Source of the DNA: Chloroflexota bacterium
Lineage (GTDB): Bacteria > Chloroflexota > UBA4733
DNA length: 25,929 nucleotides
Assembly (NCBI GenBank): GCA_023381895.1
Contig: JAMCTA010000036.1
Coordinates: forward strand, 1 to 25,929
Reading direction: 5' to 3'
Part shown: positions 9,391 through 25,929 of the stretch, one piece after another
Position numbering within the stretch: position 1 is the stretch's first letter
Layout: each line of letters opens with the position of its first letter
The notes under the pieces: model-generated
The model's database searches: none
What the model was told of the DNA's origin: nothing
What the model saw: the letters and a program-made list of their open reading frames with translations, nothing else
Translations under genes and position numbers: made by a program

Positions 9391-9767
9391 GGCCCTCGGG
9401 AGTTCGCGGTGCGGCGGAAGCATTCCGTACGCAGCGCCGCGATGGGTCGAGACCTTACGCCACCCAGTCCGCGGCCAGCAGTTCGGTATCCTTTTCCGCC
9501 TCCGCAAAGGTTTCTTTGGGCAGCGCCACCGCAGAGCATTCTCATCTCCCGTTCAGCCGCACGTGCAAGCCGCATGAGTTAGCGAAAAGTAGCGTGCTTG
9601 AGTTCTGGCAGATCGTGGTGAACGGCGATCCAAACCTCATTGGCATCAACGCCAAGAGTATTCGTGGACCAGGATGCTGCGCATAGCAATGATCCGGAAC
9701 TACGGAACCTCGAGATGCTGAGAGCGCAATGCATCCGACAGGACACGCACCGCTCCTGAGCAGATGA
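9391..9767. other. long intergenic stretch without a convincing gene
   Basis: No family-recognisable gene was found. Two weak protein-like traces exist. On the plus strand a frame without a good start is open from about 9390 to a TAG near 9689 and ends with VLEFWQIVVNGDPNLIGI and a short tail. On the minus strand a short frame ends with LPKETFAEAEKDTELLAADW followed by two residues and a stop near 9457. Neither has a ribosome site or a full domain, so they may be decayed gene fragments or chance. Confidence 0.3.
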
Positions 9768-9793
9768 AGGAGACGGCCAGGCGGCCGTCTCCT
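9768..9793 (-). terminator. strong stem-loop downstream of the PepSY gene
   Basis: AGGAGACGGCC and GGCCGTCTCCT form a perfect eleven-base GC-rich stem around a four-base loop, 26 bases beyond the stop of the minus-strand PepSY gene. The minus-strand tail is only moderately T-rich (TTCATCTG), so it may terminate weakly or mainly protect the 3' end of the mRNA. Confidence 0.55.
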
Positions 9794-9819
9794 GGTGATG
9801 CTGTGGCTACTAGCCGGTG

Positions 9820-10647
9820 TCAGCTTGCCTTCATCTGGGTGACAGCTCCCGTTGCGGCGCTCTCCCAGACCTTTTCCTTGGTTCCGCTGCTCGTGCGGAC
9901 CTGGACCTCGTAGAAGCGCCACTTCCCGCCATGGAGGCTGGTGTGCAGAACCGTTCCGCCACCGACCGCCTGCAAGGCGTTCGTATCGGCGGTGCTCGCG
10001 GCCACCAGCTGGCTATCGCGCATACTGTAGCCGTGCCCCTGGATGGCGGTTACCACCGGTGTGGTCGTGCTCGCATCCACCCAGACGTTGGTCGTTCCGT
10101 GCGGCTGCAAGCGCAGCTTGATCTGGTAGTAGTTCTTGCCGTCCTGATTGTGGAGACGCTCCTTCTTCACCCCAGCTTGATTCGACACGGCCCCTTCCGC
10201 TGCCGCCACTGCCTGCTGCGAGGAGATTTGCGCACTGGCTGACTGCCCCGACGGCGATGGAGTATGGTCCTTGGACGGCTGGCCTGTCGAGTCTACCTGG
10301 TCGGCGGAAGCCCCGCCGGTACTGCTCGTGCTCTGACTCTCCGCTCGGTTGGCCCAGAGCACCGTGTCATTACTCTGCTGAATGTGGACGACGTAGGTGG
10401 TGCCGTTGGGGGCCAGCACACGCACATCGTAGACCGCTACGCCGCGGTCTACGTCTGGCTCCGTCTTCAAGATGCTGGCCTGGCCACTACCGGGATAGGT
10501 GGCGTCTACATAGCTGATGGCGGCGTTGTCGGCGGCGGTGGGACCGTTGCCCGCAGCGGTTGCGACCGGCAACCCCATCCCCGCGAACAACGTTAATCCC
10601 AAGGTGGTTACACCCAGTGTCTTTCCGACGTTCCTTGGCATGCGCAT
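9820..10647 (-). CDS. secreted protein with three PepSY-like repeats
   Basis: A 275-residue protein with a signal peptide (basic MRMPRNVGK, hydrophobic core to about residue 30, likely cleavage near ATA/AGN). Three segments share the PepSY pattern of a helix followed by strands with a V/W..D....V.. ending: about 40-99 (AISYVDATYPGSG through YVVHIQQSNDTVLWAN), 139-202 (ISSQQAVAAAEGAVSNQAGV through VWVDASTTTPVV) and 217-273 (ADTNALQAVGGGTVLH through KVWESAATGAVTQMK). A Ser/Thr/Gln-rich linker (about 101-138) separates the first two. PepSY domains often inhibit or sense extracellular proteases. The ATG at 10647 has AAGGAG seven bases upstream. A repeat element lies 52 bases before the start. The exact function is unknown. 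Confidence 0.7.
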   Translation of the reverse strand: MRMPRNVGKTLGVTTLGLTLFAGMGLPVATAAGNGPTAADNAAISYVDATYPGSGQASILKTEPDVDRGVAVYDVRVLAPNGTTYVVHIQQSNDTVLWANRAESQSTSSTGGASADQVDSTGQPSKDHTPSPSGQSASAQISSQQAVAAAEGAVSNQAGVKKERLHNQDGKNYYQIKLRLQPHGTTNVWVDASTTTPVVTAIQGHGYSMRDSQLVAASTADTNALQAVGGGTVLHTSLHGGKWRFYEVQVRTSSGTKEKVWESAATGAVTQMKAS

Positions 10648-10699
10648 CTGCCGCTCCTTTTCTCATTTTCTGCGCTCTGGCCGGCGTACGCACCGGTCT

Positions 10700-10832
10700 A
10701 CATGCGTAAGCATGCCCTGGCACGGTTGGGACGAGGGTAGCGATTTGTTGGGAATTGGTTGGCGGTCGGTCTGGAACCGCCGGTGCGGTCCTGATAACCG
10801 TCAAGCGTGCCTCAGTGGCCGGCATAGCCTGC
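10700..10832 (+). repeat. structured dispersed element, copy 1
   Basis: This 133-base segment is nearly identical to 21956-22090, with two transitions (A10722/G21978 and T10766/C22022) and one two-base indel near the right end. Similarity stops abruptly at both edges. Plus-strand RNA could form CATGC-GTAA-GCATG (10701-10714, a GNRA loop), GGCACG with CGTGCC (10719-10724/10806-10811) and GGCGGT with ACCGCC (10761-10766/10776-10781). The ends GCATGCC and GGCATAGC are roughly inverted repeats. It lies 5' of the PepSY gene when read on the minus strand. It may be a miniature transposable element or a non-coding RNA; neither is proved. Confidence 0.85.
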
Positions 10833-11033
10833 AGCATGGCTACCATAAGGTTGGGTGGGAAGATGACCCAGAGGAGCTGATAGCCGAACTGGCGTTCACC
10901 ATCGCGATGACGAGGTTAGGGATAGCGCCGTCGCCCGTCATACCCACAGCAGCCCCCCTTGGCCACAACCGCTACAGCCAGTGCGACCGGCACGCCACGA
11001 GGTCGCTGGCATAGCGCAGTTCCTCTTCACCAG
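10833..11033. other. intergenic stretch, nothing recognised
   Basis: This is the remainder of the 386-base gap between the PepSY gene and the last gene of the sugar operon. I see no ribosome site, no recognisable protein and no clear terminator for the operon. Plus-strand frames here continue out of the repeat element and lack protein-like composition. Confidence 0.4.
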
Positions 11034-12032
11034 TCACAGCGCCGCACAGGCCACCGTCTGCCCTGTCGCATTGGCCTGGTTGGCCGCCGCACAGACCAGC
11101 GCCGACTGCAAGGCATCGCTGATTGGTGAGCGCACCAGCTCAGGTCGCCCTATTGTCACCGCCTCGAGGAACGTCGCGTGCATGCGTACGACCGGATCAC
11201 CTTCTCGTGCCCATTCATCCGTGGTGCCATCGGTCCCCAGGCGGCGTAAGTGCTGATTGGTAAGGACCCAGAGCTCATCACGTGCGACCACGCGCAGCTC
11301 CACTACCTCGCCCGGTCCGAGCTTTCCGCCGAGCCCATGGGTGCAGTGGAAGCTGCCGACGGCACCGCTGGCGTAGCGGCAGAGTAGCGCCGACACGTCG
11401 GGGATGTCGAAGTCAGGTTCCCGTTCGCTTGGTGGCCAGATCCGCTGGCTGTAGGCCGCCTGCACCGTCTGCACGTCACCGGCGATGTAGCGGGAGAGGT
11501 CCAGCACGTGGGTGAGCTGGGCATAGACCTGACCTGCATAGAAGCGGCTCTCCCGGCCCCAGCGGGTTCGCGGGGGCCCGGAGTAGTACTGGCCAGCCAG
11601 CATGGCCACGCGCTCGGACGGCACCGCCGCCTGGAGCCGGTCGACCGTCTCCAGGTAGCGCCACTGGTACCCCACCGCGGTCGGCACACCCGCCACAGCC
11701 GCAGCAGTCGCAATCGCGTGGGCATCGGCCGGGGTCACCGCCAGCGTCTTCTCGATGAACAACGGCACTCGGGCCTGGAGGATCGGCACGGCCACTGCGG
11801 TATTCATGTGGTATGGCACCGCGACGTACACCGCGTCGAGATGCTCGGCTGCCAGCATCGCCCCCACATCGGGATAGGCGCGTGTCCCCAGCTGGGCAGC
11901 CATAGCCCGCGCCGTCTCTGCTACAGCATCAACCACCGCCACGACACGAGTCCGTCCCAGGGAGTCCAGCGCCTGCAGGTGCGCGCGAGCGCGGTTGCCC
12001 ACCCCCACAAACCCAACATTGAGCTGCATCAT
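11034..12032 (-). CDS. Gfo/Idh/MocA family NAD(P)-dependent oxidoreductase (B)
   Basis: A 332-residue protein. The N-terminal Rossmann fold has the dinucleotide motif GFVGVGNRARAH (7-18), an acidic residue after the second strand (VVDAV) and the family motif EKT at 94-96 in place of EKP, whose lysine is catalytic. The C-terminal half is the Gfo/Idh beta-sheet domain (YAQLTHVLDLSRYIAGDV supplies the conserved His/Asp region). Such enzymes oxidise or reduce sugar hydroxyls or ketones. GGAGGAG lies just before tandem ATGs at 12032 and 12029; either could be used. It is the last gene of the nine-gene operon, 29 bases after the DUF6807 gene. The substrate is not known. Confidence 0.85.
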   Translation of the reverse strand: MMQLNVGFVGVGNRARAHLQALDSLGRTRVVAVVDAVAETARAMAAQLGTRAYPDVGAMLAAEHLDAVYVAVPYHMNTAVAVPILQARVPLFIEKTLAVTPADAHAIATAAAVAGVPTAVGYQWRYLETVDRLQAAVPSERVAMLAGQYYSGPPRTRWGRESRFYAGQVYAQLTHVLDLSRYIAGDVQTVQAAYSQRIWPPSEREPDFDIPDVSALLCRYASGAVGSFHCTHGLGGKLGPGEVVELRVVARDELWVLTNQHLRRLGTDGTTDEWAREGDPVVRMHATFLEAVTIGRPELVRSPISDALQSALVCAAANQANATGQTVACAAL

Positions 12033-12061
12033 CGTCTCCTCCTCCCGGGCCCTATCACGGA

Positions 12062-12937
12062 TCATCCCACTCCATCACTAAGCCGTTCGAGCGGTCGCGG
12101 CTGGGTAGTGAACCAATGCAGCAGCGCTTCGGCGTGCTCGGGACTCCCTGCTCCTTCGTGAACCGCGACGAGGTAGGTCAGCTGCCAGGACTGACCTATT
12201 CCTAACTCCTTAGGCTGGTGAAACGTCGGTGACGCCGCAAAGAAGGCCATGTCGCTCGTGATCGTGTGGAAAGGGACGGGGTGCGGTTGGTTCGCCGGGT
12301 GGCCCACGATGGTCACCCCAGCCACGCCCCCGCCGTCATCGAGCATCCCGGTATAGTCACACCACGTCGCGGGAACGCCGCGCGTCGCCGCTTCCCCCTC
12401 CTGGCCGTTGGCGTTCACCAGCGTGGGCCGGACGTTGAGGGAGCGGGCGAGACGGATACCCAAGCCGTTGTACGTGGGCGGTGTGCGGAAGACGACGCTC
12501 TGCTCGAGGGCGTGTAAGCGGGTGTCGATCACGAGCAGCCACTCCCCTGGATGGTCGGAAGCGCAGACCGCGAAGGCGAGGAGTTGTTCCAAGAGAGGAG
12601 CATTTCCAGGATCTCGCCAGGTCAAACGAGCCGCTACCTCAGCCGTGTCCGGCCCAGCACGTCGCTCGAGCCATTCGGCTAGCACGATGCGACCCGTCTG
12701 CTCTGGCCCTCGGTGTTCCTCCCAGAAGTTGATCCCATTGATGTCTGACCAGGTGAGCATGAGCCCGCGGTGGTGCAGATGGTCGAAGGGGGCGTGGAGG
12801 CTGATGAGATGACCCGACAGCGTATAGAGGTGGGTCCAGCTGGGCTTGAGGAGCTGCTGATCATAGCCGTAGCGGAGGAGGAGCTGTGAGCCATCGAAGA
12901 TGGTCAACGCCTCACCGACTTCGTCGTGTATTCGCAT
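12062..12937 (-). CDS. DUF6807 / PmoA-like family protein
   Basis: A 291-residue protein recognisable by LHAPFDHLHHRGLMLTW followed by INGINFWEE, the His-rich signature of the family annotated as DUF6807 or, misleadingly, methane oxygenase PmoA (PF14100). A C-terminal block reads GVTIVGHPANQPHPVPFHT. Members occur beside Gfo/Idh oxidoreductases and sugar isomerases in polysaccharide clusters; the biochemical role is not established. The several histidines suggest a metal or sugar-binding site. The ATG at 12937 has GGAAGAGAG upstream; the frame to 12985 adds 16 residues without support. It lies between isomerase B (75-base gap) and oxidoreductase B (29-base gap). Confidence 0.78.
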   Translation of the reverse strand: MRIHDEVGEALTIFDGSQLLLRYGYDQQLLKPSWTHLYTLSGHLISLHAPFDHLHHRGLMLTWSDINGINFWEEHRGPEQTGRIVLAEWLERRAGPDTAEVAARLTWRDPGNAPLLEQLLAFAVCASDHPGEWLLVIDTRLHALEQSVVFRTPPTYNGLGIRLARSLNVRPTLVNANGQEGEAATRGVPATWCDYTGMLDDGGGVAGVTIVGHPANQPHPVPFHTITSDMAFFAASPTFHQPKELGIGQSWQLTYLVAVHEGAGSPEHAEALLHWFTTQPRPLERLSDGVG

Positions 12938-13012
12938 GATCGTCTCTCTTCCTTTTCTGCGCCGGAGGTAGGGTATGCCGTTCATAGTGGACTGCTAACG
13001 TGAGTAGTGCTC

Positions 13013-13888
13013 TCACCTCGCAGGGGTTTCTCGCACCACTTCTGATTTCGCGGCTTCAATCGCGGTGATCACCTGCTGCAAGTGTGCGAGCGAGCGCTCT
13101 GCCTGTATCACCGTGCCACACTCGACCGAGAGCACGCCCTGGTAGCCGGCATTGCGCAGGATCTGGACGACCTGCCGCCAGTCGACCAGGCCATCACCAC
13201 AGGCGCAGCCCACCGGTGTGCCGGTCACCTTCCCACGTTCGCGCTCCGCCTGATCGAGGGCGATATCCTTGGCGTGGACGTGGACCACTCGCGGAGCGAG
13301 CTTGGTCAGCCAGATAATGGGATCTTCTCCGGCGAGGTAGAGGTTCCCCGTGTCGAAGTTGACGCCGAGCATCGGAGAGTCTACCAAGTTGAGCATGCGC
13401 TCAAAGGTCTCCCAGCGCGTGCTCAGGTTCTGGTGCTGCTCGAGGCCAATTTTGATCCCGTGGCGCTCGGCCACCGGGGTGACGGCTCGCAAGGTGTAGC
13501 GGATCTGCTGGAAGGCTTCTTCGTCCGTCATCCACGGGTGCTTGAAGCCATCGTCGGTCGTGACCACTGGCGCGCCGATCTCCGCTGCCCAGCGGATGGC
13601 CTGGCGCAGGTAGTTGACGGCGATCTCCGGCTTGGCGAGCGGTGAGTGGGCGGAGAGTGCCGAACACTGGAGGCCGAGGCGATCGAGGAACTCCCGATAG
13701 GCGAGGGGATCTTCCTCCATGCTCAGCATGTGGTAGTATCCTCCTTCGGCTAAGAGGTCACGCCCGGTGGCGACGCACGGCTCGACGAATCGGTAGCCGA
13801 GCTCGGCGGCTTTCTGGGCCCCCCAGTTGAACGGCTTGTCGCTACTGCGCACGTACTCCAGATTGACACCGATACTAATGGTCTCCAC
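13013..13888 (-). CDS. sugar phosphate isomerase/epimerase-like TIM-barrel enzyme (B)
   Basis: A 291-residue xylose-isomerase-like TIM barrel (AP endonuclease 2 superfamily). Likely divalent-metal ligands are E150 (IGLEQH), D179 (VNFDTGN), H205 (VVHVHAKD) and E256 (LSVECG). It shares GKVTGTPVGCACGDGLVDW (219-237) with enzyme A of this operon and aligns to it without gaps over nearly its whole length. The GTG at 13888 is preferred because it falls exactly where paralogue A has its ATG and has GGAGG five bases upstream; an ATG at 13900 adds four residues. Possible reactions include isomerisation, epimerisation or elimination on a keto-sugar made by the neighbouring Gfo/Idh enzymes. The substrate is unknown. 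Confidence 0.83.
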   Translation of the reverse strand: METISIGVNLEYVRSSDKPFNWGAQKAAELGYRFVEPCVATGRDLLAEGGYYHMLSMEEDPLAYREFLDRLGLQCSALSAHSPLAKPEIAVNYLRQAIRWAAEIGAPVVTTDDGFKHPWMTDEEAFQQIRYTLRAVTPVAERHGIKIGLEQHQNLSTRWETFERMLNLVDSPMLGVNFDTGNLYLAGEDPIIWLTKLAPRVVHVHAKDIALDQAERERGKVTGTPVGCACGDGLVDWRQVVQILRNAGYQGVLSVECGTVIQAERSLAHLQQVITAIEAAKSEVVRETPAR

Positions 13889-13926
13889 ATTCTCCTCCAT
13901 TTCCTAAGCTCGTTCTCGACCGGCTA

Positions 13927-15018
13927 TCACGCCCCTGCCACGTCGACTGGCACTCCGCCCCGACAGGCAGACTCGTAGATCGCAAAGATGATCGCCATCG
14001 TCCCGAGGTTGTCACGGCCACTCGTCAGCGGCTCCTCGCCGCTCCGGCAGCAAGCCACGAAGTGGGCGATCTCATTGGTGAAGCCGTCGTCGCCCGGCAA
14101 GTCTTGGCGGTCCGGCTCGACCGGGAGAAAGCCCGTGAACTGCCGCTCCCAGCGTGGCGCATCCGGGGCGAGGCCATCGTGCCCGCGTGAGGCGTAGAAG
14201 GCCGACCCCTGGCTGTGCCCTGGCTCGGGCAAGGCATGCACGGCCCCGTCATCGCCAAAGAGCATGAACGACTCGGAGTAGGGCATGCGGAAACCACTGT
14301 AGGTGGCAAAGTGTTCGCCGATCGCCCCGTTCGTAAACTCCAACACGGCAGCAGCGTAGCTTTCGGCACCATTCTTGAACGGAGGATCACCAAGGCGGCA
14401 GAGCGCGGTGACACGCCGCACCTCCCCGATGAAGTAGCGGATGAGGTCGAGGCGGTGGACGGAGACAGAGATGATGATACCCCCACCAGCGAGGGTGCCG
14501 TCGTAGAGCCAGTGTTCTGGAGCAAGCTGGAGATTCTGCATCGAGTCGAAGCGCACACCCCGGATGGCCCCCAGCTCACCCGACTGCACCAGCCGCTTGA
14601 CACCGCGGTACGAGGGTGTGTAGCGCTGGACCTGAGCGACCATCAGGGTCACTCCTGCCTGCTCCGCCGCCTGCACCATCGCCCGGCACTGCTCTATGGA
14701 ACAGGCCATGGGCTTCTCCACCAGCACGTGCTTACCCGCCCGAGCGGCGGCAATGGCCACTTCAGCGTGCAGGTGATGCGGAAGGCAGATGTCCACCGCG
14801 TCAACCGCAGGGTTGGCGAGCACGGCGCGGTAGTCCGTGCTCGCCTGCGCCGATCCCAGCTCCTGAGCGCGGCGCTGTGCCAGCTCGGTCGCCACGTCCG
14901 ACGTGGCGACGACCTGCACGACGTCCGGGCCGAGCGTCTTGTAGCCGCGGACGTGGGCATTGGAGATGCCCCCACAGCCGATGAGGCCGATGCGCAAGGG
15001 AGAAGTAGCCACCGTCAT
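13927..15018 (-). CDS. Gfo/Idh/MocA family NAD(P)-dependent oxidoreductase (A)
   Basis: A 363-residue protein with a Rossmann motif GLIGCGGISNAH (11-22), the catalytic-lysine motif EKP (101-103) and GGGIIISVSVHRLDLIRYF, the conserved substrate-side motif with a His and Asp. The C-terminal Gfo/Idh domain follows. It is more typical of the family than oxidoreductase B and clearly not a recent copy of it. The ATG at 15018 overlaps the TGA of isomerase A (ATGA) and has GAGGAG eight bases upstream, so the pair is coupled. A frame to 15117 exists but lies inside the isomerase gene. It probably oxidises a sugar or glycoside hydroxyl with NAD(P)+; the substrate is unknown. Confidence 0.88.
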   Translation of the reverse strand: MTVATSPLRIGLIGCGGISNAHVRGYKTLGPDVVQVVATSDVATELAQRRAQELGSAQASTDYRAVLANPAVDAVDICLPHHLHAEVAIAAARAGKHVLVEKPMACSIEQCRAMVQAAEQAGVTLMVAQVQRYTPSYRGVKRLVQSGELGAIRGVRFDSMQNLQLAPEHWLYDGTLAGGGIIISVSVHRLDLIRYFIGEVRRVTALCRLGDPPFKNGAESYAAAVLEFTNGAIGEHFATYSGFRMPYSESFMLFGDDGAVHALPEPGHSQGSAFYASRGHDGLAPDAPRWERQFTGFLPVEPDRQDLPGDDGFTNEIAHFVACCRSGEEPLTSGRDNLGTMAIIFAIYESACRGGVPVDVAGA

Positions 15019-15884
15019 CGCGAGATCTCCTCTACCACTTTCGCACCACGGTTTACCACATCGCAAACCGGCTGTAGGTGCGCCAGGCTGCGGATGGCTT
15101 CCGCCTCTGTGGTGCACTCGACCGACAGGATGACGTCTCGCTGGTGGCGTGCCAGGATCTCCACGATCCGCCGCCAGTCGACGACGCCGTCCCCGCAGGC
15201 GCAGCCGGTTGGCGTGCCCGTCACCTTGCCGCGCTCGGCGGTCGACTGGACGAGAGAGATGTCCTTGGCGTGGACGTGCACCACCCGGTCGGCAAAGTGC
15301 TCCAGCATGTCATAGGGTTCCGCACCGGCCAGGTAGCTATTGCCGGTATCGAAGTTCACTTTGAATAGCGGCGAGGGATGGAGGGCGAGGATGCGCTCCA
15401 ATCCATCGGTCGTCGTCGTGTACTCACCGTGCGGCTCGAGAGCAACGAAGATGCCGTAGCGTTCCGCTACCGGCAGCACCCGCGCCAGCGTGTAGCGCAT
15501 GATCTCGAAAGCCCAGCGCTCGTCCATCCAGGCCGGACGCCACATCTCGTCGGTATTGACCACCGGCGCGCCCAGGTCGGAGGCCCAGCGGATGCCCTGG
15601 ATGAGATAATCGACTGCGACCTCCGGGCGCATCAATGGCGAGTGGGCCGAGAGGGCGGAGACCCGCAGGCCGACATCCTCGATGAGCCGGCGATACTCGC
15701 GCGGATCATCCTGCATGCTGCGGAAGTGGTAGTAGTTCGCCTCCGACAACAGGTCTCGCCCGTTGAGCACGCAGGGCTCGACGTAGCGGTAGCCGATCTC
15801 CGCTGCCCGCCGCACGCCGTACTCAAAGCTGCGGTCCTCGTGCCGCACGTACTCCATGTTGATGCCAATGCGAATGTCGGTCAT
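15015..15884 (-). CDS. sugar phosphate isomerase/epimerase-like TIM-barrel enzyme (A)
   Basis: A 289-residue TIM barrel, the paralogue of enzyme B at 13013-13888. Conserved blocks include IGINMEYVR (6-14), VEPCVLNGRDLL (35-46), LSAHSPL (78-84), VNFDTGN (176-182), VVHVHAKD (201-208), GKVTGTPTGCACGDGVVDW (219-237) and LSVEC (253-257). Metal ligands are predicted at E150, D179, H205 and E256. The ATG at 15884 gives a start matching enzyme B; the longer frame to 16184 runs through the preceding gene and is rejected. The ribosome site is weak (GAGAGA), so translation may be coupled to the small gene that ends 13 bases upstream. The precise reaction is unknown. Confidence 0.84.
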   Translation of the reverse strand: MTDIRIGINMEYVRHEDRSFEYGVRRAAEIGYRYVEPCVLNGRDLLSEANYYHFRSMQDDPREYRRLIEDVGLRVSALSAHSPLMRPEVAVDYLIQGIRWASDLGAPVVNTDEMWRPAWMDERWAFEIMRYTLARVLPVAERYGIFVALEPHGEYTTTTDGLERILALHPSPLFKVNFDTGNSYLAGAEPYDMLEHFADRVVHVHAKDISLVQSTAERGKVTGTPTGCACGDGVVDWRRIVEILARHQRDVILSVECTTEAEAIRSLAHLQPVCDVVNRGAKVVEEISR

Positions 15885-15897
15885 CGTAACGTTCTCT

Positions 15898-16266
15898 CTA
15901 GCTAACCGCCTGTACCTCAAACGACGCCTCCACGGGACCCAGCGTCCCAAAGTGCCGCTTGCGCAGATCGCTCCCACAGCAGCCACCGGAGCCCGCAGAC
16001 AGCACCACCAGGGCGGAGCCACTAGGCATTCCCGGCGGGACGACCCACCGCAACTCTCCTCGCCCCGTGATGGTCGCTGCTGCGAAGTTCTCCACGGATC
16101 CATTCGGGTAGGTGACCACCGCACTGAGCACGACGACCTCTTGGACGGGGTTCTTGATGGACACCCTGATCGTCTGCTGGTCACCTGCCTTGAGGCAGGG
16201 CTTCGTAATGCGGAAGGAACGGAAGAACAGGTGATCTCGAACGCGCTCCAATCGTGCAGTACTCAT
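15898..16266 (-). CDS. small orphan protein, beta-sandwich-like
   Basis: A 122-residue protein that I do not recognise. It has no signal peptide or membrane segment. The middle alternates short hydrophobic strands and turns (QQTIRVSIKNPVQEVVVLSA, VTYPNGSVENFAAATI, ELRWVVPPGMPSGSALVVLS), suggesting an immunoglobulin-like beta-sandwich. A Gly/Cys patch, SAGSGGCCGSD, could bind a metal. AAGGAGGAG lies directly upstream of the ATG at 16266. It is placed between the permeases and isomerase A, so it may be a partner of the isomerase, as the small beta subunit is in C-glycoside deglycosidases. It does not look like that subunit family (DUF6379), so this is only an analogy. Confidence 0.72.
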   Translation of the reverse strand: MSTARLERVRDHLFFRSFRITKPCLKAGDQQTIRVSIKNPVQEVVVLSAVVTYPNGSVENFAAATITGRGELRWVVPPGMPSGSALVVLSAGSGGCCGSDLRKRHFGTLGPVEASFEVQAVS

Positions 16267-16295: not shown

Positions 16296-17189
16296 CTACG
16301 CTTTCATGCCCGTCAGTACGATGCCCTGGATGAACTGCTTCTGAGCGAAGAAGAAGACGAGGATCACCGGCGCGACGACCATCGTCGATGCGGCCATGAG
16401 GAGTCCCCACTGTGTGCCCTGCTCGCTCTCGAAGACCTGCAGCCCCAGCGCGAGCGTGTAGTGCGACTGGGAGTTCAGGTAGATAAGCGGACCGAAGAAG
16501 TCGTTCCAGGCACCGAGAAAGCGGAAGATGCCGACCGTTGCTAGCGCTGGCTTGGACAACGGCATGACGATGGACCACCAGATGCGCAGGTGTGAGGCCC
16601 CATCGATGAGCGCCGAATCCTGGAGCTCCAGCGGAATGGTCAGGAAGAACTGGCGCAGCAAGAAGATATCGAAGGCGCCCCCGAGCAGCGGGGGAACCGT
16701 CAGTGGCAGGAGCGTGTTCACCCAGTGGATCTTGGCGAAGATGATGTAGGTTGGGATGATGAGTACGATCCCTGGAATCATCATCGTCCCCAGCACGAGC
16801 ATGAAAATGAGGTTGCGTCCTGGCGCCCGCAGTATGGCGAAGGCATAGGCAGTGAGCGCGGAGACCAGCACACCTCCGGCAACGTTGGCGGTAGCGATGA
16901 TCACGGTGTTCTCGGCGTAGCGATACAGGGGAACATAGGTAAACACGGCGGGGTAGTTTCCCCATACGATCGGCGTCGGAATCCACTGCGGTGGCCAGAC
17001 GAAGATCTGCCAGGTCGGCTTGAGCGAGGTGGAGATCATCCAGAAGAGCGGCAGACCATACACGACACTGCCAGCGATGAGTACCGTGTAGGCGAGTAGC
17101 CGCGCCGCCGTGCGCCGCAGGAGCACAGCGCGGAGCTGGAGACTGGACCGCAGTACGACCAGTGGACGGCTTACCGGGAGATTGGCCAT
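16296..17189 (-). CDS. carbohydrate ABC transporter permease, MalG type
   Basis: A 297-residue inner-membrane protein with six predicted helices after a basic cytoplasmic tail. The ATPase-contact (EAA) loop reads LQDSALIDGASHLRIWWSIV and is followed by MPLSKPALAT, with the conserved Gly and Pro; the EAA itself is replaced by DSA. The C-terminal GIVLTGMKA tail is typical of MalG-type (CUT1) permeases. It pairs with the MalF-type gene immediately upstream, whose stop is one base before this ATG (TGACATG). GGAGGAG lies 12 bases before the start, inside the upstream gene's end. It imports the sugar delivered by the binding protein at 18097-19638. Confidence 0.92.
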   Translation of the reverse strand: MANLPVSRPLVVLRSSLQLRAVLLRRTAARLLAYTVLIAGSVVYGLPLFWMISTSLKPTWQIFVWPPQWIPTPIVWGNYPAVFTYVPLYRYAENTVIIATANVAGGVLVSALTAYAFAILRAPGRNLIFMLVLGTMMIPGIVLIIPTYIIFAKIHWVNTLLPLTVPPLLGGAFDIFLLRQFFLTIPLELQDSALIDGASHLRIWWSIVMPLSKPALATVGIFRFLGAWNDFFGPLIYLNSQSHYTLALGLQVFESEQGTQWGLLMAASTMVVAPVILVFFFAQKQFIQGIVLTGMKA

Positions 17190-17190
17190 G

Positions 17191-18075
17191 TCAGCGGCGT
17201 GCTCCTCCCTCGTAGTAGACCCAGCGCGTGGCGAGCCAGAGCTGGACCAAGGTCAGCGCCAGGATGGCGAGGAGCAGCAGCCAGGCCATGGCAGCGGCGT
17301 AGCCCATGTTGAGGAAGTGGAAGGCCTGGCGGTAGAGGTAGAGCATGTAGAAGAGGGTAGAGTTATCCGGCCCACCGCTCGTCATGATGTAGGCGGCGGT
17401 GAAAACCTGGAAGGAGCCAATAATGCCTATCACGGAGACAAAGAAGATGGTTGGCGTCATCATCGGAACGGTCACATGCCGAAAACGCGCCCACTGTCCT
17501 GCTCCGTCGATCATCGCCGCTTCGTAGAGCTGCTGCGGCACCCCTTGGAGTCCTGCCAGGAAGATGATCATCGAGCCCCCCGAGCTCCAGACCGACATGA
17601 GAATCAGCGCCGGCTTCGACCAGTGCACCGAGCCGAGCCACGGCGGCCCCGCGATCCCCAGGAAGTGGAGCAGGCTGTTGAGCAGACCCCACTGGGGCTC
17701 GAGGATCCAGATCCACAAGATCGAGCTCGCGACAGCAGGCACGACCGACGGTAGGTAGAAGAAGGTGCGATAGACGGCCACACCGCGGACACGGAGGTTG
17801 AGCAGGAGGGCGAGACCGAAAGAGACGACGATCTGCAAGGGTACCGCGATGACTGTATAGAACGCGGTGTTCCCCAGGGTCACTAGGAAGAGGCTATCCG
17901 CGGTCAGGAGGCGGCGGTAGTTGTTGAAGCCGGTGAAGAGGGGAGCTTGCACCACATTGTAGTCAGTGAAGCTCAGAGCCAGCGATGCGAGCACGGGACC
18001 GAGACCAAACACCAGGAAGCCTGCTGCCCAGGGCAACAGGAAGAGGTAGAAGGTCCGCGCTTCGAGCCGCCGCAT
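17191..18075 (-). CDS. carbohydrate ABC transporter permease, MalF type
   Basis: A 294-residue permease with six hydrophobic helices. The EAA loop is LYEAAMIDGAGQWARFRHVT followed by VPMMTPTIFF. The early segment FLLPWAAGFLVFGLGPVLAS and the extracytoplasmic loop FTGFNNYRRLL are characteristic of MalF/UgpA-like CUT1 permeases. The ATG at 18075 follows GGAGTGGGGAAG; a GTG at 18096, directly abutting the stop of the binding-protein gene, would add seven residues but has no ribosome site. It forms the heterodimeric channel with the downstream MalG-type protein. No ATPase gene is in the operon. Confidence 0.92.
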   Translation of the reverse strand: MRRLEARTFYLFLLPWAAGFLVFGLGPVLASLALSFTDYNVVQAPLFTGFNNYRRLLTADSLFLVTLGNTAFYTVIAVPLQIVVSFGLALLLNLRVRGVAVYRTFFYLPSVVPAVASSILWIWILEPQWGLLNSLLHFLGIAGPPWLGSVHWSKPALILMSVWSSGGSMIIFLAGLQGVPQQLYEAAMIDGAGQWARFRHVTVPMMTPTIFFVSVIGIIGSFQVFTAAYIMTSGGPDNSTLFYMLYLYRQAFHFLNMGYAAAMAWLLLLAILALTLVQLWLATRWVYYEGGARR

Positions 18076-18096
18076 CTGTCTTCCCCACTCCAGCAC

Positions 18097-19638
18097 CTAG
18101 GCGCCGTGCGCACGGGCAATGCGCGCCCACGCCTTGTCGAGCGCCGTCTGAATCGGCGGGGTCACGCTGGCGAGTGCATCCTGTGGCGTCTTGTTCCCGA
18201 TCATCACCATGTCCCAGGCGTTCTTGAAGCCAGTCCAGAGCTCCGCTCCCACCAGCCAGCCAACGACACCGCAGCCCGTTGCCCACTTGATGCCATCAAA
18301 GCCACTCAAGGCCATCGACCGCTGCGGTTCGGGGAGTTTCTGGACGTAGGGGCTATTCCGCAGCCAGGTATTGACGGGAGCCAGCCCCATAGGGACGGGA
18401 ACGTAGACGGGCGTCCCTGGAAGCTTCTCGCGGGCCCACTGCTGCTTGGTGAGCGTCAGCCCAGTCGTCGCCACGCTGCTCACCCCCGGTTTCCCTGTAA
18501 CGAACATGATGAACTTCCAGCTCTCCGCCTCGTGTTTGGTGTGGGGGTCTATGACGAAGGAGAAGTCACAGGACCAGTTCACTGTGCGGCCAGCGAGCTT
18601 GTCGGCGACGGGCATCGCGTAGCTGCCGTTGTACTTGAGGTTGGGGTAAGCAGCGTAGCCGCCGACCATCCACAGCCCGTAGGATGTCATGGAGATCTTC
18701 CCTTGGGCAAAGGGATCGAGCGCCTGGCCGGCGAAGCCGGACAGCCACTGGGCGGCCTTGTGTGCCCCGCCATCGTAGACGTCGTAGAAGTGCTTCACCC
18801 AGGTGAGCGCGTCAGCCCAGGCGGGATCCTCGGTAAAGAGGAGCTTTTTGCCAGAGGCATCCCAGACCTTGGCACCGTCCTCCAGGGCAAAGATCAGCAG
18901 CTGGTCTGACAACGCGGGGAATTCAGGAATGAAGCCGTAGCGCTCGAAGGTATTGCCTTTCTTAAGGGTCAGCTTCGCGGTGAACTTCTCGAGGTCCGTC
19001 CAGGTCTTGGGCCCGACCTTAGGATCGAGACCGACCTCTTCGAAGTGCTGCATATTCCAGAAGAAGAAGCGACCATCAACGTTGTAGGGGATGCCATAGA
19101 GCTTGCCGCCCCAGGTCAACTCCTTCCACTGCTCTGGGAAGATATCGCTCTGAGTAAAGCCCTCCCGTTCGTAGAGCGAGGTAATGTCCTTGAAGAGCCC
19201 GAGCGAAGAGTATTCGGGGAAAAGGTTTCGGTTCTGAAAGGAGACGTCGGGGCCAGTCCCGGCTGCCACGGCAGCGAGGTACTTCGGACTCCCGTAAACG
19301 TTCTGCCCCATGAGGCCCAACTGCACCTTGATGTCCGGGTTCGCCTTCTCGAAGTCAGCGGCCACGGCCTGCTGGGAGGGAGTGGTATCCCACCAGACGT
19401 GAATCTTCGTGACCTGCTTGGCGACTTTAGGCGGTGCTGCCGCAGCCTTGGCGGCTGCTTTCGCTGTGGTGGATGTTGTGGCTGCACTCTTCGCCGGTGC
19501 GGTGGAGCTGCTCACTGTCGCCGCGGTAGCGCTCGTTGCCGTACTGCCACAGGCCGCGAGCAGGGTTGCGGCCATCAGGGCAGCACTACTGGCTGCGGTG
19601 AAACTCAAGAACTGGCGCCGAGTTGTCGCTGATGACAT
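18097..19638 (-). CDS. ABC transporter sugar-binding lipoprotein, Tat-type signal
   Basis: A 513-residue extracellular solute-binding protein (family 1). The N-terminus has a twin-arginine motif (TRRQFLSF, 6-13), a hydrophobic stretch and a lipobox LLAAC with the lipidated cysteine at 30. An Ala/Thr/Ser-rich linker (31-75) leads to the mature domain beginning KIHVWWDTTPS. Aromatic-rich segments such as NVDGRFFFWNMQHF and SYGLWMVGGYAAYPN fit sugar stacking. AAGGAG lies eight bases before the ATG. It is the first gene of the operon, directly behind the promoter at 19701-19729. Tat export means it is folded before secretion. The sugar ligand cannot be deduced. Confidence 0.92.
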   Translation of the reverse strand: MSSATTRRQFLSFTAASSAALMAATLLAACGSTATSATAATVSSSTAPAKSAATTSTTAKAAAKAAAAPPKVAKQVTKIHVWWDTTPSQQAVAADFEKANPDIKVQLGLMGQNVYGSPKYLAAVAAGTGPDVSFQNRNLFPEYSSLGLFKDITSLYEREGFTQSDIFPEQWKELTWGGKLYGIPYNVDGRFFFWNMQHFEEVGLDPKVGPKTWTDLEKFTAKLTLKKGNTFERYGFIPEFPALSDQLLIFALEDGAKVWDASGKKLLFTEDPAWADALTWVKHFYDVYDGGAHKAAQWLSGFAGQALDPFAQGKISMTSYGLWMVGGYAAYPNLKYNGSYAMPVADKLAGRTVNWSCDFSFVIDPHTKHEAESWKFIMFVTGKPGVSSVATTGLTLTKQQWAREKLPGTPVYVPVPMGLAPVNTWLRNSPYVQKLPEPQRSMALSGFDGIKWATGCGVVGWLVGAELWTGFKNAWDMVMIGNKTPQDALASVTPPIQTALDKAWARIARAHGA

Positions 19639-19700: not shown

Positions 19701-19729
19701 AGTATATGGATCGATCAAGTAGTTGTCAA
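19701..19729 (-). promoter_or_regulatory. sigma-70-type promoter of the sugar operon
   Basis: On the minus strand TTGACA (19729-19724) is followed after exactly 17 bases by TATACT (19706-19701). The -35 box is perfect consensus and the -10 box matches five of six positions. Transcription should start near 19694, about 55 bases before the binding-protein ATG. A second TTGACA lies 13 bases further upstream (19742-19737). Confidence 0.8.
19707..19718. promoter_or_regulatory. LacI-type operator candidate inside the promoter spacer
   Basis: TGGATCGATCAA is a palindrome with core GATCGATC and the central CG typical of LacI/GalR operators. It fills the promoter spacer next to the -10 box, so a bound repressor would block RNA polymerase. 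The divergent gene at 19782 encodes a LacI-family protein, the obvious candidate ligand-responsive regulator. The binding itself is inferred. Confidence 0.6.
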
Positions 19730-19781: not shown

Positions 19782-21758
19782 ATGGGTATAAGGATGCGGG
19801 ACATTGCGGCAGCGGCCGACGTGTCGCTCCAGACTGTGTCCAATACCCTCAACGGCCGGCCAGGGGTGTCGGAGCAGACACGCGCGCGGGTGTTGGACGT
19901 GGCACGCCGCCTCGGTTACGTGCGGAACGCGCATGCGGCAGCGCTCCGCACACAGCAGACTGGGCGTGTTGGCCTGTTCGTCGTGACGGCTGAGGCGACG
20001 TTCCCCGCGGACACGCACCAGGCTCGGTTGCTCGCTGGGATCACTGGGCAATTGCTTGAGCAAGGACTTCCCACGCTGCTACCCCTGTTCTTGAGCCGGA
20101 ATCTCGCCCCGACTGCTGAGGACTTTGCTCCGCTGGAACAGGGTGGGTACGTCACCATCGTGCTGCTCTTCCTCCCACGGCAGCAGTGCCGCCAGTGGGT
20201 CGACGCTCTTATGGCCGGAGGATGGCCGTGTGTCTTCATCGAGCAAGTGGCGAGTGCGCCACAGCTCGCCTGTGTCCTCTCCGATCAGCAGCAGGGGGCG
20301 TTCGATGCGACGCAGTACCTCCTCCGGCAAGGGCACCGTCACATCGCCTTCCTGGCGATCGCACCGAGCACAGAAGAGACGGAAGAGCGCTGCCTGGGCT
20401 ACAATCGCGCCATGGCGCTCTGGGGGATCCGGGCAGAGCAGCGCACCATCGTGGAGACCGAAGACTCCGTTGTCAGCGGCTACAAGGCGACCATCGCCCT
20501 GTGTCGAAGCACCGCTCGTCCGACCGCGATCGTGACAGCGAGTGACTTCCTCGGGCTGGGAGCGATCGAAGCTGCCCACACCGCTGGGCTCCGCGTTCCT
20601 GAGGACCTCGCCGTGGTGGGTTTTGAAGATATGGAGTTCAGCGCCCACCTCACCCCTGCGCTGTCCAGCGTGCGGCTGCCGGATCGCGCGCTCGGTGCTG
20701 AAGCGGCGCGCCTGGCCATCGACTATACGCGCACGGGGAGGTTTGCCCAGGCGAAAGTCATCTTGCCGGCTCACCTCTACGTCAGAGCATCGAGTGTCAC
20801 GGATGGGACGATCACGACGACGCTGGGCAACCACGAAGCAGCGACTGCGCCGGGACAACCGCGCCGCAGCCCCTTCCGGATCGGTGTTTCGCTCATCAGC
20901 GTGAACAATCCCTGGCGAGCAAGCGTGATCGAGCAGCTCCGCTTGGCGAGCGAGCGTGAGCCGGATGTGACAGAATTGCTCGTCAAAGATGCGCAGGAGG
21001 ATGCTGAGCAGCAAGCGCGCGACATCGAGGACCTGAGCGCCAACAGCATCGATGCGCTCATCGTGGACCCTGGCGCCGGGATGCCGCTGGTGCACCCCGT
21101 CGAAGAGGCGGTGAGCCGGGGCATTCCCGTGATCTTGATGGATAGTGCGATTCCGACGGAGCGGTACACCGCAAAAGTCGGGCCGGATGAGGTGCTGGTA
21201 GGGAAGGTCGCTGCGGAGGACCTGCTCGCGCGTATGGGTGCCGGCAACATCGTCCTGCTGGAAGGTCCCGCAGGCTGGCCGGTCGTCGAGGAACGGAGTC
21301 GGGGCATCGCGCTCGTCCTGCGCCAGCATCGGGAAGTCCGGGTCCTCGCGACCGCTGCCGTACCACGATGGTCGCGGGAGCGCGCCAAGGAGCTAATGCG
21401 CGACTGGCTCTTGCTCTTCCCGACGATCGATGGGGTGCTGGCGCACGATGGGCTCATGGCAATGGGTGCCTGGGAAGCGGCGCGAGAGGCTGGGCGGGCC
21501 GAGCACGTGAAACTCGGCCTCATCGGCACCTATAACCGTGCCCTCAAGCACATTGCGGACACCGGTGAGGGGAAGAGCGTGCTCATTCCCACCTGGATCG
21601 GTGCCGAGTGCTTACGTGTTGCGCTGTGCATCCTCCGCGGTGAAGCGATGCCCAAATGGGTGGACATGGGGCTGATTGAGATCACGAAGGAGAATGTCCG
21701 GGACTGGTATGAGCCCTCGAAAGCCGGTGATGCCTTCGAGAGCCTTGTGCACGAGTAA
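19782..21758 (+). CDS. LacI-family regulator with two tandem periplasmic-binding-protein-like sensor domains
   Basis: A 658-residue protein, about twice normal LacI length. Residues 4-50 are the LacI helix-turn-helix (MRDIAAAADVSLQTVSNTLN), followed by a hinge. Residues about 62-337 are the usual LacI sensor, with LLRQGHRHIAFL, TAIVTASDFLGLGAIEA and LRVPEDLAVVGFED. After a Pro/Arg linker (about 338-363), residues 364-644 form a second complete RbsB-like domain: FRIGVSLISVNNPWRASVIE, IDALIVDPGAGMPLVHPVEE, GIPVILMD, GNIVLLEGPAGWPVVEERSR and IDGVLAHDGLMAMGAWEA. No signal peptide, so both act in the cytosol. The ATG at 19782 is chosen over an upstream frame at 19698 because the HTH starts just after it. 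It is divergent from the sugar operon and probably controls it. Confidence 0.92.
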   Translation: MGIRMRDIAAAADVSLQTVSNTLNGRPGVSEQTRARVLDVARRLGYVRNAHAAALRTQQTGRVGLFVVTAEATFPADTHQARLLAGITGQLLEQGLPTLLPLFLSRNLAPTAEDFAPLEQGGYVTIVLLFLPRQQCRQWVDALMAGGWPCVFIEQVASAPQLACVLSDQQQGAFDATQYLLRQGHRHIAFLAIAPSTEETEERCLGYNRAMALWGIRAEQRTIVETEDSVVSGYKATIALCRSTARPTAIVTASDFLGLGAIEAAHTAGLRVPEDLAVVGFEDMEFSAHLTPALSSVRLPDRALGAEAARLAIDYTRTGRFAQAKVILPAHLYVRASSVTDGTITTTLGNHEAATAPGQPRRSPFRIGVSLISVNNPWRASVIEQLRLASEREPDVTELLVKDAQEDAEQQARDIEDLSANSIDALIVDPGAGMPLVHPVEEAVSRGIPVILMDSAIPTERYTAKVGPDEVLVGKVAAEDLLARMGAGNIVLLEGPAGWPVVEERSRGIALVLRQHREVRVLATAAVPRWSRERAKELMRDWLLLFPTIDGVLAHDGLMAMGAWEAAREAGRAEHVKLGLIGTYNRALKHIADTGEGKSVLIPTWIGAECLRVALCILRGEAMPKWVDMGLIEITKENVRDWYEPSKAGDAFESLVHE

Positions 21759-21955: not shown

Positions 21956-22090
21956 ACATGCGTAAGCATGCCCTGGCGCGGTTGGGACGAGGGTAGCGAT
22001 TTGTTGGGAATTGGTTGGCGGCCGGTCTGGAACCGCCGGTGCGGTCCTGATAACCGTCAAGCGTGCCTCAGCTTGGCCGGCATAGCCTGC
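21956..22090 (+). repeat. structured dispersed element, copy 2
   Basis: This 135-base copy matches 10700-10832 in the same orientation with two transitions and one two-base insertion. It lies between the convergent regulator and glycosylase genes. The G at 21978 replaces A in the outer stem, but GGCGCG can still pair with CGTGCC (22062-22067) through a G-U wobble, so the stem is kept. The C at 22022 costs one pair of the inner hairpin. Conservation of non-coding sequence at two unrelated sites supports a mobile or functional element. Confidence 0.85.
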
Positions 22091-22882: not shown

Positions 22883-23839
22883 TTGCGAATCAAGCGATTA
22901 GGACACACTGGCCTGAAGGTGTCGGAAATCTGCCTGGGAACAATGACCTTCGGCAGCCAGGCGGATGAAGATACGAGCCGTGCCATTGTTCAGCGAGCGC
23001 TCGATGCTGGCGTCAACTTCTTCGACACGGCGAACGTCTACAACGCAGGAAGGTCGGAGGAGATCACCGGGCGTATCCTCAAGGATGTCCGGCGGGATAT
23101 CGTGCTGGCGACCAAGGTTCATCATCGCATGGGCCCTGGACCCAACGACGCCGGCCAGTCACGCAAGCACATCATGGATGCGGTCGAAGCTAGCCTTCGC
23201 CGCCTCGGGACAGACTACATCGACCTGTACCAGGTACACCGGTTCGATCCGGAGACACCACTCGAAGAGACGCTCAGCGCTCTAGACGATCTGGTGCGGG
23301 CGGGCAAAGTCCGCTACGCTGGCTGCTCGAACTATGCAGCGTGGCAGCTGACCAAGGCGCTCTGGATCAGTGATGTCCGCAGGTTGACCCGCTACGACTC
23401 GGTGCAGCCGCGCTATAATCTCATCTCTCGTACTATTGAGGGAGAGCTGCTCCCGTTGTGTGCCGATCAAGGGGTCGGGGTCATTGTCTACAACCCTCTC
23501 GGCGGCGGCATGCTGACGGGAAAGCACCGCCGCGAAGCGGGGCCAGCGGCGGGAACCCGGTTCGACAATAACCGCAACTACCAGAATCGCTACTGGCGCG
23601 ACATCGTGTTCGATGCCGTGGACCGCTTCCGGGAGATTGCCGCGGATCAGCCCGCGACGATGGCCCAGCTTGCCCTTGCCTGGACGCTGGCGAACCCGGT
23701 GGTGACCTCGGCGATTCTCGGCGCCACGAGTGTCCAGCAGCTCGAAGAGACCCTTCCTGCCACAGAAGTGACGCTCAGTCCGGAGCTCTTGCCCCTCGTC
23801 GATGAGCTATGGGAGATCGTTGGCCGGCAGGAGTTCTAG
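22883..23839 (+). CDS. aldo/keto reductase
   Basis: A 318-residue (alpha/beta)8 NAD(P)H-dependent oxidoreductase. The catalytic tetrad is visible as D48 and Y53 (FFDTANVYNAG), K78 (LATKVHH) and H119 (YQVHRFD). GLKVSEICLGTMTFG near the N-terminus and ILGATSVQQLEETL near the C-terminus, the cofactor-phosphate region, are standard. It resembles the AKR11/12-type aldehyde and sugar reductases. The start is a TTG at 22883 with AAGGGG nine bases upstream and full alignment to the family start. It is followed after 41 bases by the RhmD-like gene, so the pair is probably co-transcribed and may act on the same acid-sugar or aldehyde intermediates. The substrate is not defined. Confidence 0.92.
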   Translation: MRIKRLGHTGLKVSEICLGTMTFGSQADEDTSRAIVQRALDAGVNFFDTANVYNAGRSEEITGRILKDVRRDIVLATKVHHRMGPGPNDAGQSRKHIMDAVEASLRRLGTDYIDLYQVHRFDPETPLEETLSALDDLVRAGKVRYAGCSNYAAWQLTKALWISDVRRLTRYDSVQPRYNLISRTIEGELLPLCADQGVGVIVYNPLGGGMLTGKHRREAGPAAGTRFDNNRNYQNRYWRDIVFDAVDRFREIAADQPATMAQLALAWTLANPVVTSAILGATSVQQLEETLPATEVTLSPELLPLVDELWEIVGRQEF

Positions 23840-23880
23840 ACTCCTCGCGCTGAAGGGCAAAACCTAGAGGGGGCGCTGTG

Positions 23881-25047
23881 ATGAAGATCACGCACGTGGA
23901 AACGCTACGTCTGACGCGCCCGCGCCAGTCGGTCCCGGAGCCGCGCGGCCCTTCCTGGGCAGCGTCTGCCGAAGTCGCCAACCCCATGTCGCGCTTTCCT
24001 CACGTGAAACGGCACCGTAGTCTGTGGCTGCCGCAGTGGGAGGCCGTGTGGTGTCGCGTTACGCTCGAGGATGGCACGCAGGGGCTCGGCGCCACCAGCA
24101 ATGGCCGCCCCGTGGCAGCGGTGATCGAAGATCACCTCGCCCCACGGCTGATTGGTGAGGATTGCTTCGCAGCGGAGCGGATTGCCGACCTGCTCTTTCG
24201 GGCCACCAAGCCGTACGGCTCAACGGGCCTCGCCTCCTACGCCATCTCGGCTGTCGATCTGGCAATCTGGGATGCCGTGGGGCACGTGTTGCAGCGACCG
24301 GTGTATCAGCTCCTCGGCGGGAAGCAGCAAGAGCGGCTCTTCTGCTACGCCACCGGCAACGATGTTGCTTGGTATCGCGAGCTGGGTTTCCGGGCCTTCA
24401 AGCTCGCCTGTCCCTATGGTCCGGCCGATGGTCTCGATGGCATTCGCCGGAACGAGGAGCTCGTTGCTCGCACGCGTGAGCTGATTGGCGATGACGGTGA
24501 GCTTATGCTCGACTGCTGGATGGCCTTCGATGTGGACTATACGGTGCGCCTCGCCGAAGCGCTCCGGCCCTACCGCCTGCACTGGATGGAAGAGTGTCTC
24601 GTGCCCGAGGATTTGGAAGCGCACATTGCGCTACGCGAGCGGCTCCCCTGGCAGTCGCTCGCCACCGGCGAGCATTGGTATACCCACGTCCCATTTGGCT
24701 TGGCTCTCCATCACCATGTGGTGGACGTGGTGCAGCCGGACGTGCAGTGGGTTGGCGGTGCGACCGTCTGCCGCCGGATCGCTGTTCAGGCCGACGCCGC
24801 CGGTGCGAGTATGATCCTGCACGCCGGAGGCAACAGCGCTTTTGGTCAGCACGTGAGCAGCGCACTACCGGCGGTGCCGTGGTGCGAGTGCTTCATCGGC
24901 ACACCACCGGGAGTGCCCCTCGAGGCTGCGGGCTGGAGCCTTCCTGGGCAGGCCGTACCGGAAGATGGCTGGCTCACCCCGAGCGCTGCCCCAGGGTTCG
25001 GCCTGGAGATTCCGTCGGAGTGGCTTAGTCCCTTCTTCGGTCACTAA
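23881..25047 (+). CDS. enolase-superfamily acid-sugar dehydratase, L-rhamnonate dehydratase-like
   Basis: A 388-residue member of the mandelate racemase/muconate lactonizing group. ANPMSRFPHVKRHR (33-46), LDCWMAFDVDYTVRLA (210-225) and QPDVQWVGGATVC (285-297) match the L-rhamnonate dehydratase (RhmD) pattern. Magnesium ligands are D211, E237 and E264 (TGEHW); H314 in LHAGGNS corresponds to the general-base His. RhmD converts L-rhamnonate to 2-keto-3-deoxy-L-rhamnonate; a different six-carbon acid sugar remains possible. The ATG at 23881 has GAGGGGG seven bases upstream (a GTG just before it is less likely). Its stop overlaps the stop of the convergent GH127 gene. Confidence 0.85.
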   Translation: MKITHVETLRLTRPRQSVPEPRGPSWAASAEVANPMSRFPHVKRHRSLWLPQWEAVWCRVTLEDGTQGLGATSNGRPVAAVIEDHLAPRLIGEDCFAAERIADLLFRATKPYGSTGLASYAISAVDLAIWDAVGHVLQRPVYQLLGGKQQERLFCYATGNDVAWYRELGFRAFKLACPYGPADGLDGIRRNEELVARTRELIGDDGELMLDCWMAFDVDYTVRLAEALRPYRLHWMEECLVPEDLEAHIALRERLPWQSLATGEHWYTHVPFGLALHHHVVDVVQPDVQWVGGATVCRRIAVQADAAGASMILHAGGNSAFGQHVSSALPAVPWCECFIGTPPGVPLEAAGWSLPGQAVPEDGWLTPSAAPGFGLEIPSEWLSPFFGH

Positions 25048-25929
25048 TCCCGTGCTCTGCGAGGCAGCCACACACGCATCGGTCCAGCTTGCCGGTTGGC
25101 CCAGGCGTAGTAGGGAATGGCAGTGATCTGAGCTGGCCGTGGTGGGGATACCGGCGCGGCATCCAAGCTCTCGTAGAGGCGCGCTCCCCAGCCAGCAGAT
25201 GGCCGCGCGCTGGCGGGTGCCGTCACGACAACCACGCCGCCGAGCAGGGCGGGAGCCGGTGTGCTGGTGAGCGGGGCATCATCGGGCAACACAATGTCCC
25301 ACACGTCCGCACCTGGGTGATCGATCCCCTCCAGGCAATACACCAGCGGTCCGCGCGTGATGGCCACCTGACCGGTGTTTGCTAGCACGTGCGGATGGCT
25401 CACCTGACGCTGCGGGAGCATTGGCAGCTCGAGATCGATGACGTCGCCGCGCTGCCACTCCCGGCGCAACGTGAGGTAGCTACCTGGCTGGGGCTTGCTG
25501 TTGCCTGATAGCTCGGGGGCAGACACCTGCGGTGCGGTGCACCAGCCAGGGATGCGCAGGGTGATGCTGTGCTCTCCCCCCGGCGCTTCTTCTACGGTCA
25601 GGCGCACTGTGCCATCCCAGGGATAGTCTGTGTCTATCGTGAGGGAGAGCTGCTGCCCATTGTCGAGCGGAGCGCTCACGGTGCTACGGGCGTAGAGGTG
25701 CAGCCAGAGCCCCTCGCTCGATGTGCTGGCGACGTAGCCGGGGAGGCTCATGAGCAAGCGAGCTACGTTGGGTGGGCAGCAAGCGCAGGCAAACCACGAT
25801 TGACGCCGGTGCTTGCCACGGTCTGCCAGGGGGTTCACGTAGAAGTAGGCTTGTCCGTTGAGTGAGATGCCAGAGAGGAAGCCGTTGTAGAGCGCCCGTT
25901 CGAGGGCATCAGCGTAGCGGGCCTGAGGA
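25044..25929 (-). CDS. GH127 (DUF1680) beta-L-arabinofuranosidase-like protein, C-terminal part
   Basis: The minus-strand frame stays open to the right edge, giving 294 residues of the C-terminal part. It begins RYADALERALYNGFLSGISL and YFYVNPL, then FACACCPPNVARLL, the zinc-cysteine signature of GH127 enzymes, in which a cysteine is the proposed nucleophile. A beta-sandwich follows, including RIPGWC and GPLVYCLEGID. Family members remove beta-L-arabinofuranose from plant glycoproteins or related sugars. The apparent start at 25838 is an internal GTG; the true start lies outside the window. No signal peptide can be judged. Its TAG (25044-25046) overlaps the TAA of the convergent RhmD-like gene. 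Confidence 0.92.
   Translation of the reverse strand, partial: PQARYADALERALYNGFLSGISLNGQAYFYVNPLADRGKHRRQSWFACACCPPNVARLLMSLPGYVASTSSEGLWLHLYARSTVSAPLDNGQQLSLTIDTDYPWDGTVRLTVEEAPGGEHSITLRIPGWCTAPQVSAPELSGNSKPQPGSYLTLRREWQRGDVIDLELPMLPQRQVSHPHVLANTGQVAITRGPLVYCLEGIDHPGADVWDIVLPDDAPLTSTPAPALLGGVVVVTAPASARPSAGWGARLYESLDAAPVSPPRPAQITAIPYYAWANRQAGPMRVWLPRRARD

Follow-up and report, generated by a model that had tools for sequence, protein, structure and literature searches.

A LacI-family regulator with two sensor domains beside a divergent sugar cluster in a Chloroflexota bacterium

A 25,929-nucleotide stretch of Chloroflexota DNA (contig JAMCTA010000036.1, hereafter the window) encodes a LacI-type regulator in which a second sensor domain, of RbsB type, follows the usual LacI-type sensor in one open frame. 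The architecture, its conservation, the predicted folds and a gene neighbourhood kept in three loci were established directly. On this basis we think it reasonably likely that the protein acts in the cytoplasm as a LacI-family repressor with two ligand inputs, controlling the divergent cluster for sugar uptake and catabolism. The more specific reading, which we advance as a tentative possibility, is that of a single-chain two-input switch, where a repressor that acquired an independent cytoplasmic RbsB-type sensor would place one operator under the joint logical control of two metabolites, such as an imported sugar and an intermediate of the pathway.

Domain layout and family

The coordinates of the regulator, its domains and the adjacent features are given in Table 1. 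Pfam matched the helix-turn-helix (HTH, PF00356) with 50.9 bits against a cut-off of 27, Peripla_BP_3 (PF13377) at residues 178-338 together with Peripla_BP_1 (PF00532) in domain 1, and Peripla_BP_4 (PF13407) at residues 367-621 in domain 2, where 257 of the 258 profile positions were covered. The resulting layout (5-49, about 62-340 and 364 to about 640) confirms the claim of the initial annotation, made from the letters alone, that one frame holds two complete sensor domains; the LacI HTH, Peripla_BP_3 and Peripla_BP_4 hits that it expected were all obtained, with Peripla_BP_1 besides, and the segment 364-644, which it had read as a periplasmic-binding-protein domain, was matched by PF13407 nearly end to end.

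Table 1. Positions of the regulator, its domains and the divergent features in the window
Feature	Position	Strand	Basis
Two xylose-isomerase-like TIM barrels, two Gfo/Idh/MocA oxidoreductases, DUF6807	11034..15899	-	Pfam
Two ABC sugar permease genes (BPD_transp_1)	16296..18096	-	Pfam
Extracellular sugar-binding protein (SBP_bac_1), divergent neighbour	18097..19638	-	Pfam
Sigma-70-like promoter toward the divergent cluster (TTGACA, 17 nt, TATACT; 11/12)	19701..19729	-	Consensus match only
Imperfect palindrome TGGATCGATCAA, central CG, in the promoter spacer	19707..19718	.	Candidate operator
Two-sensor LacI-type regulator, 658 aa	19782..21758	+	ORF open from ATG to TAA
LacI-type helix-turn-helix, residues 1-49	19782..19928	+	PF00356 at residues 5-49
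Hinge-helix region, residues 50-61	19929..19964	+	Model helix 50-56, low confidence there
Sensor domain 1, LacI type, residues 62-342	19965..20807	+	PF13377 and PF00532, fold model
Linker of variable sequence and length, residues 343-363	20808..20870	+	Conservation; low pLDDT
Sensor domain 2, RbsB type, residues 364-658 (fold 364 to about 640, then tail)	20871..21755	+	

The N-terminal HTH and the LacI-type effector domain after it, both of which define the LacI/GalR family, are present, and domain 2 combines PF13407 over the full profile with a type I binding-protein fold. Residues 50-61 are presumed to act as the hinge by analogy with LacI. In NCBIfam, the first half fell among LacI-type repressors (the top RbsR model scored 171 bits, below its cut-off of 382 bits) and the second half among RbsB, YtfQ and other CUT2 binding proteins. 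One DNA-binding family was matched in PHROGs, with its best stretch within the LacI part, and no histidine kinase or receiver domain was matched by Pfam in the regulator. Since the matches listed by VIA-align for the full model were all to domain 2, the LacI half was folded separately. Modelled alone, it gave a complete predicted LacI fold (pLDDT 92.6), and fold comparison matched it to structures of RbsR, CcpA, PurR and LacI. Residues 323-359 had pLDDT values below 50 in the predicted structure.

Homologues of the same architecture, which had also been proposed as a check, were found. A search of approximately 5.8 billion proteins yielded ten full-length members including the query, 657-685 residues long, the other nine being 58-74% identical to the query over 96-100% of its length; the LacI, Peripla_BP_1, Peripla_BP_3 and Peripla_BP_4 models matched in all ten. 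These ten were among 65 hits from 7,994 scored candidates, chosen as those sharing the most words, and the counts are therefore lower bounds. A second search with the family alignment gave 68 hits, including the same ten and no further full-length member. Judged from listed length and Pfam label, the remaining 55 hits of the first search comprised shorter LacI proteins of 361-391 aa, hybrid two-component proteins and regulators whose HTH is of another type.

Among the genomes searched, the gene was carried by two, G001 and G003. These were two of 29 in the class to which the first carrier, G001, itself counted, belongs, and two of 400 in a draw from the phylum, for which at most three candidates were scored per genome. 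The two-sensor family is thus rare within the searched genomes, but stable. Among plasmids, neither a match to the protein at 1e-30 nor a megablast match to window positions 9300-12200 was found. The LacI HTH itself was present in 276 of the 400 phylum genomes (at most 17 candidates scored per genome). Among the 150 such matches listed, the open frame measured 301-500 aa in 144 cases, 300 aa or less in four and 550 aa or more in two; of these two long frames, one (G363) looks by eye like an ordinary LacI gene, and the other (G192) is a fusion of a LacI repressor with a URO-D-like domain. The two-sensor genes of G001 and G003 fall outside the 150 listed matches, so that the commonness of the layout is not measured by that survey.

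Conservation of the two sensors and their putative roles

In all nine homologues, domain 2 (residues 364-646) was closer to the window protein than domain 1 (residues 62-342), with 77 vs 75% identity in the closest homologue and 64-76 vs 54-59% in the rest. The most variable part of either sensor was the stretch of residues 62-165, at 42-68% identity and with 11 of 104 positions invariant. Across the ten members, 19 of the 49 HTH positions were invariant, compared with none of the 12 hinge positions and none of the 21 linker positions, the latter having a mean conservation of 0.40.

Ligand-contact positions were taken from lists for RbsB (14 positions) and LacI (16 positions). In domain 2, nine of the 14 RbsB contact positions were invariant (N376, W378, R379, D429, P468, P496, R505, W530 and L601) against 104 of 277 positions overall (P = 0.035), a modest value that depends on the contact list used. 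Among these nine, N376 and R505 alone carry the RbsB residue; W378 and W530 stand in place of phenylalanine, and the other five are different residues. At RbsB R90 (S/A), D215 (I/V/C/A) and Q235 (L), polar side chains or charge are gone. With these contacts changed, the ligand of domain 2 is not nameable from RbsB, and domain 2 nevertheless probably binds one, judging by its conserved positions. In domain 1, four of the 16 LacI contact positions were invariant against 75 of 281 overall (P = 0.66); 20 positions had been printed, from which the contact neighbours 148, 196, 245 and 273, none of them invariant, were dropped. R203 (LacI R197) and E282 (LacI D274) are kept in all ten members and E154 (LacI D149) in eight, and the pair H79-Q80 is invariant. 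As its contacts are not enriched, domain 1 may bind nothing, or ligands that vary between members, and on the sequence data it may or may not be a ligand-binding domain.

The two sensors had been treated as equals in the initial annotation, a view that does not agree with the better conservation of domain 2 and with the enrichment of invariant residues at its contacts and not at those of domain 1. Of the two, domain 2 is probably the principal sensor or the more specific one, and at least as important as domain 1. This asymmetry could be taken further, with sensing left to domain 2 alone and domain 1 retained as a scaffold for dimerisation and allostery. Such a replacement is in keeping with domain 2 as the better conserved sensor, with the poorly conserved residues 62-165 and with the lack of enrichment among the domain 1 contacts, but we regard it as rather unlikely given the invariance of R203, E282 and H79-Q80 in domain 1 and the complete predicted fold that the LacI half retains. 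Less probable still is a purely structural role, in which domain 2 would have lost ligand binding and would act in oligomerisation or in docking of a partner, for instance by building tetramers and DNA loops. LacI forms tetramers through a C-terminal extension, domain 2 sits at that same end, and several of its RbsB contacts are altered; the aromatic and polar pocket residues N376, W378, R379, R505 and W530, invariant in 10 of 10 members, argue against this role.

For the two-input repressor that we favour, we infer repression, dimerisation, ligand binding and inter-domain coupling. By analogy with LacI, RbsR and PurR, the LacI half (HTH, hinge and domain 1) would bind the operator as a dimer, which would occupy the promoter, with ligand either freeing or engaging it. 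Domains 1 and 2 would each bind a small molecule, and closure of either would alter the dimer and with it the affinity for the operator. Domain 2 is the additional element, lying at the C-terminal end of domain 1 in the place of the LacI tetramer helix, from where its closure could change the dimer face of domain 1 without an intermediary; another possibility is pairing of domain 2 across the dimer.

Origin of the fusion and relation to known systems

The two sensors were approximately 20% identical and each strongly matched its own, different PDB family, which supports their origin by fusion and not by recent duplication, as the initial annotation had proposed. A recent tandem duplication was rejected: hhalign of the domain profiles gave 20% identity over 200 columns (E 2.4e-7), a distant kinship, and BLASTP between the two domains found nothing better than E 0.17. 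The idea that a repressor gene and a binding-protein gene were joined by misassembly or a frameshift, for which the unusual length and nothing else could be cited, is refuted by nine homologues of the same architecture on other contigs and from several sources. An even coding signal across the junction also speaks against it, as do the short domain 2 hits P0066 and P0067, which by eye are 5'-cut pieces of the same fusions. Codon-position composition, computed for residues 1-600, was uniform across the junction. The absence of a signal peptide, from which the initial annotation had excluded a frameshift join, holds as an observation, since domain 2 directly follows the linker with no preceding hydrophobic segment; by itself it excludes such a join weakly, and it is the homologues that exclude it.

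A protein-database search with domain 2 returned three hits from 5,272 candidates (P0066, P0067 and P0068). P0068, of 252 aa and 52% identical to domain 2, lies on a contig of 1,216 bases and may represent a more distant branch of the family. When unfused relatives of domain 2 were sought in the 29 class genomes at E <=1e-15, five hits were obtained besides the two fusions, with 25-31% identity and in open frames of 360-415 aa.

The regulator has the HTH, hinge region, LacI-type sensor and fold in common with LacI/GalR repressors such as RbsR, CcpA, PurR and LacI, but these have one sensor, whereas the window protein adds a second behind it. In PMC4052901, the domain structure of the LacI family is described as rigid, with an HTH and a single effector domain (PF00532, PF13377 or PF13407). 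The regulator departs from this arrangement of two domains through its second sensor, PF13407, and is therefore filed as a new architecture variant of the known LacI family and not as a standard member. Among the titles and abstracts listed in searches of a mostly open-access literature, none described a two-sensor LacI protein, which does not prove novelty.

Compared with RbsB-type CUT2 solute-binding proteins, domain 2 has no signal peptide, is fused behind a DNA-binding protein and has several ribose contacts changed; lacking a signal peptide, it is considered a relative of these proteins and not a transport component. Its best PDB sequence matches were 2ioy (102.7 bits) and 2x7x (101.6 bits). 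The latter is BT1754, a hybrid two-component sensor in which an RbsB-type domain likewise serves as sensor for transcription, and which has the W-R motif of domain 2 and a tryptophan aligned to W530. PMC3404733 describes BT1754 as a periplasmic fructose sensor that signals via a kinase, whereas the window protein has no kinase domain in Pfam. The LacI plus URO-D fusion in G192 (L019 1469-3697), a 742-aa protein with PF01208 at residues 490-732, likewise has an extra C-terminal domain, but an enzyme-like one and not a second sensor.

The LacI family is a standard model for the allosteric control of genes. A conserved natural two-sensor variant shows that the two-domain layout, described as rigid in PMC4052901, is extendable. 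Such a repressor would directly test how two binding events combine in one protein and would offer a template for two-input synthetic switches.

The divergent sugar cluster and the promoter region

Genes for DUF6807, Gfo/Idh/MocA oxidoreductases and AP_endonuc_2 TIM barrels are divergent from the regulator in all three loci with readable context (the window and, for two of the nine homologues, L001 and L008). The cluster in the window also holds a small ORF without a Pfam match. The L001 locus (G001) has DUF6807, Gfo/Idh/MocA and an AP_endonuc_2 TIM barrel on the divergent side, the last being clipped by the contig end and just under threshold (30.9, cut-off 31.1). On the same side of L008 (G003) lie genes for a sugar-binding protein, a sulfatase, a TIM barrel, DUF6807, Gfo/Idh/MocA and a second binding protein. 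DUF6807 is sparse, with six matches in G001 and two in G003 (these neighbours included) and presence in one of 14 control genomes, so that the link between regulator and cluster was judged unlikely to be due to chance. The DUF6807 gene beside the regulator in L001 (1587-2297) covers 140 of 270 profile positions and looks shortened.

The promoter scan found two promoter-like sites in 2,531 bases, where 0.4 were expected. The palindrome TGGATCGATCAA had three matches with at most two mismatches, a number reached in 27 of 100 shuffles, and inspection by eye of L001 and L008 showed no matching site; being neither distinct from chance nor present in the other loci, it is only a lead as an operator candidate. 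Palindromes 14-22 bases long, with no more than one mismatched pair, were absent from the window and L001 and occurred once in L008, and thus none was shared.

A direct repeat in the same orientation (10700-10832 and 21956-22090) brackets the sugar cluster and the regulator, with 116 nt at 98% or 135 nt at 97% depending on the comparison. No copy was found in the other loci compared, and Rfam had no match in the window. The repeat could be the sign of a unit that is mobile or was duplicated, or else a dispersed element. Downstream of the regulator (window 22883-25929) lie genes for an aldo/keto reductase, an enolase-superfamily protein (MR_MLE) and GH127, the frame of the last being open to the window end, and these genes suggest a larger sugar region.
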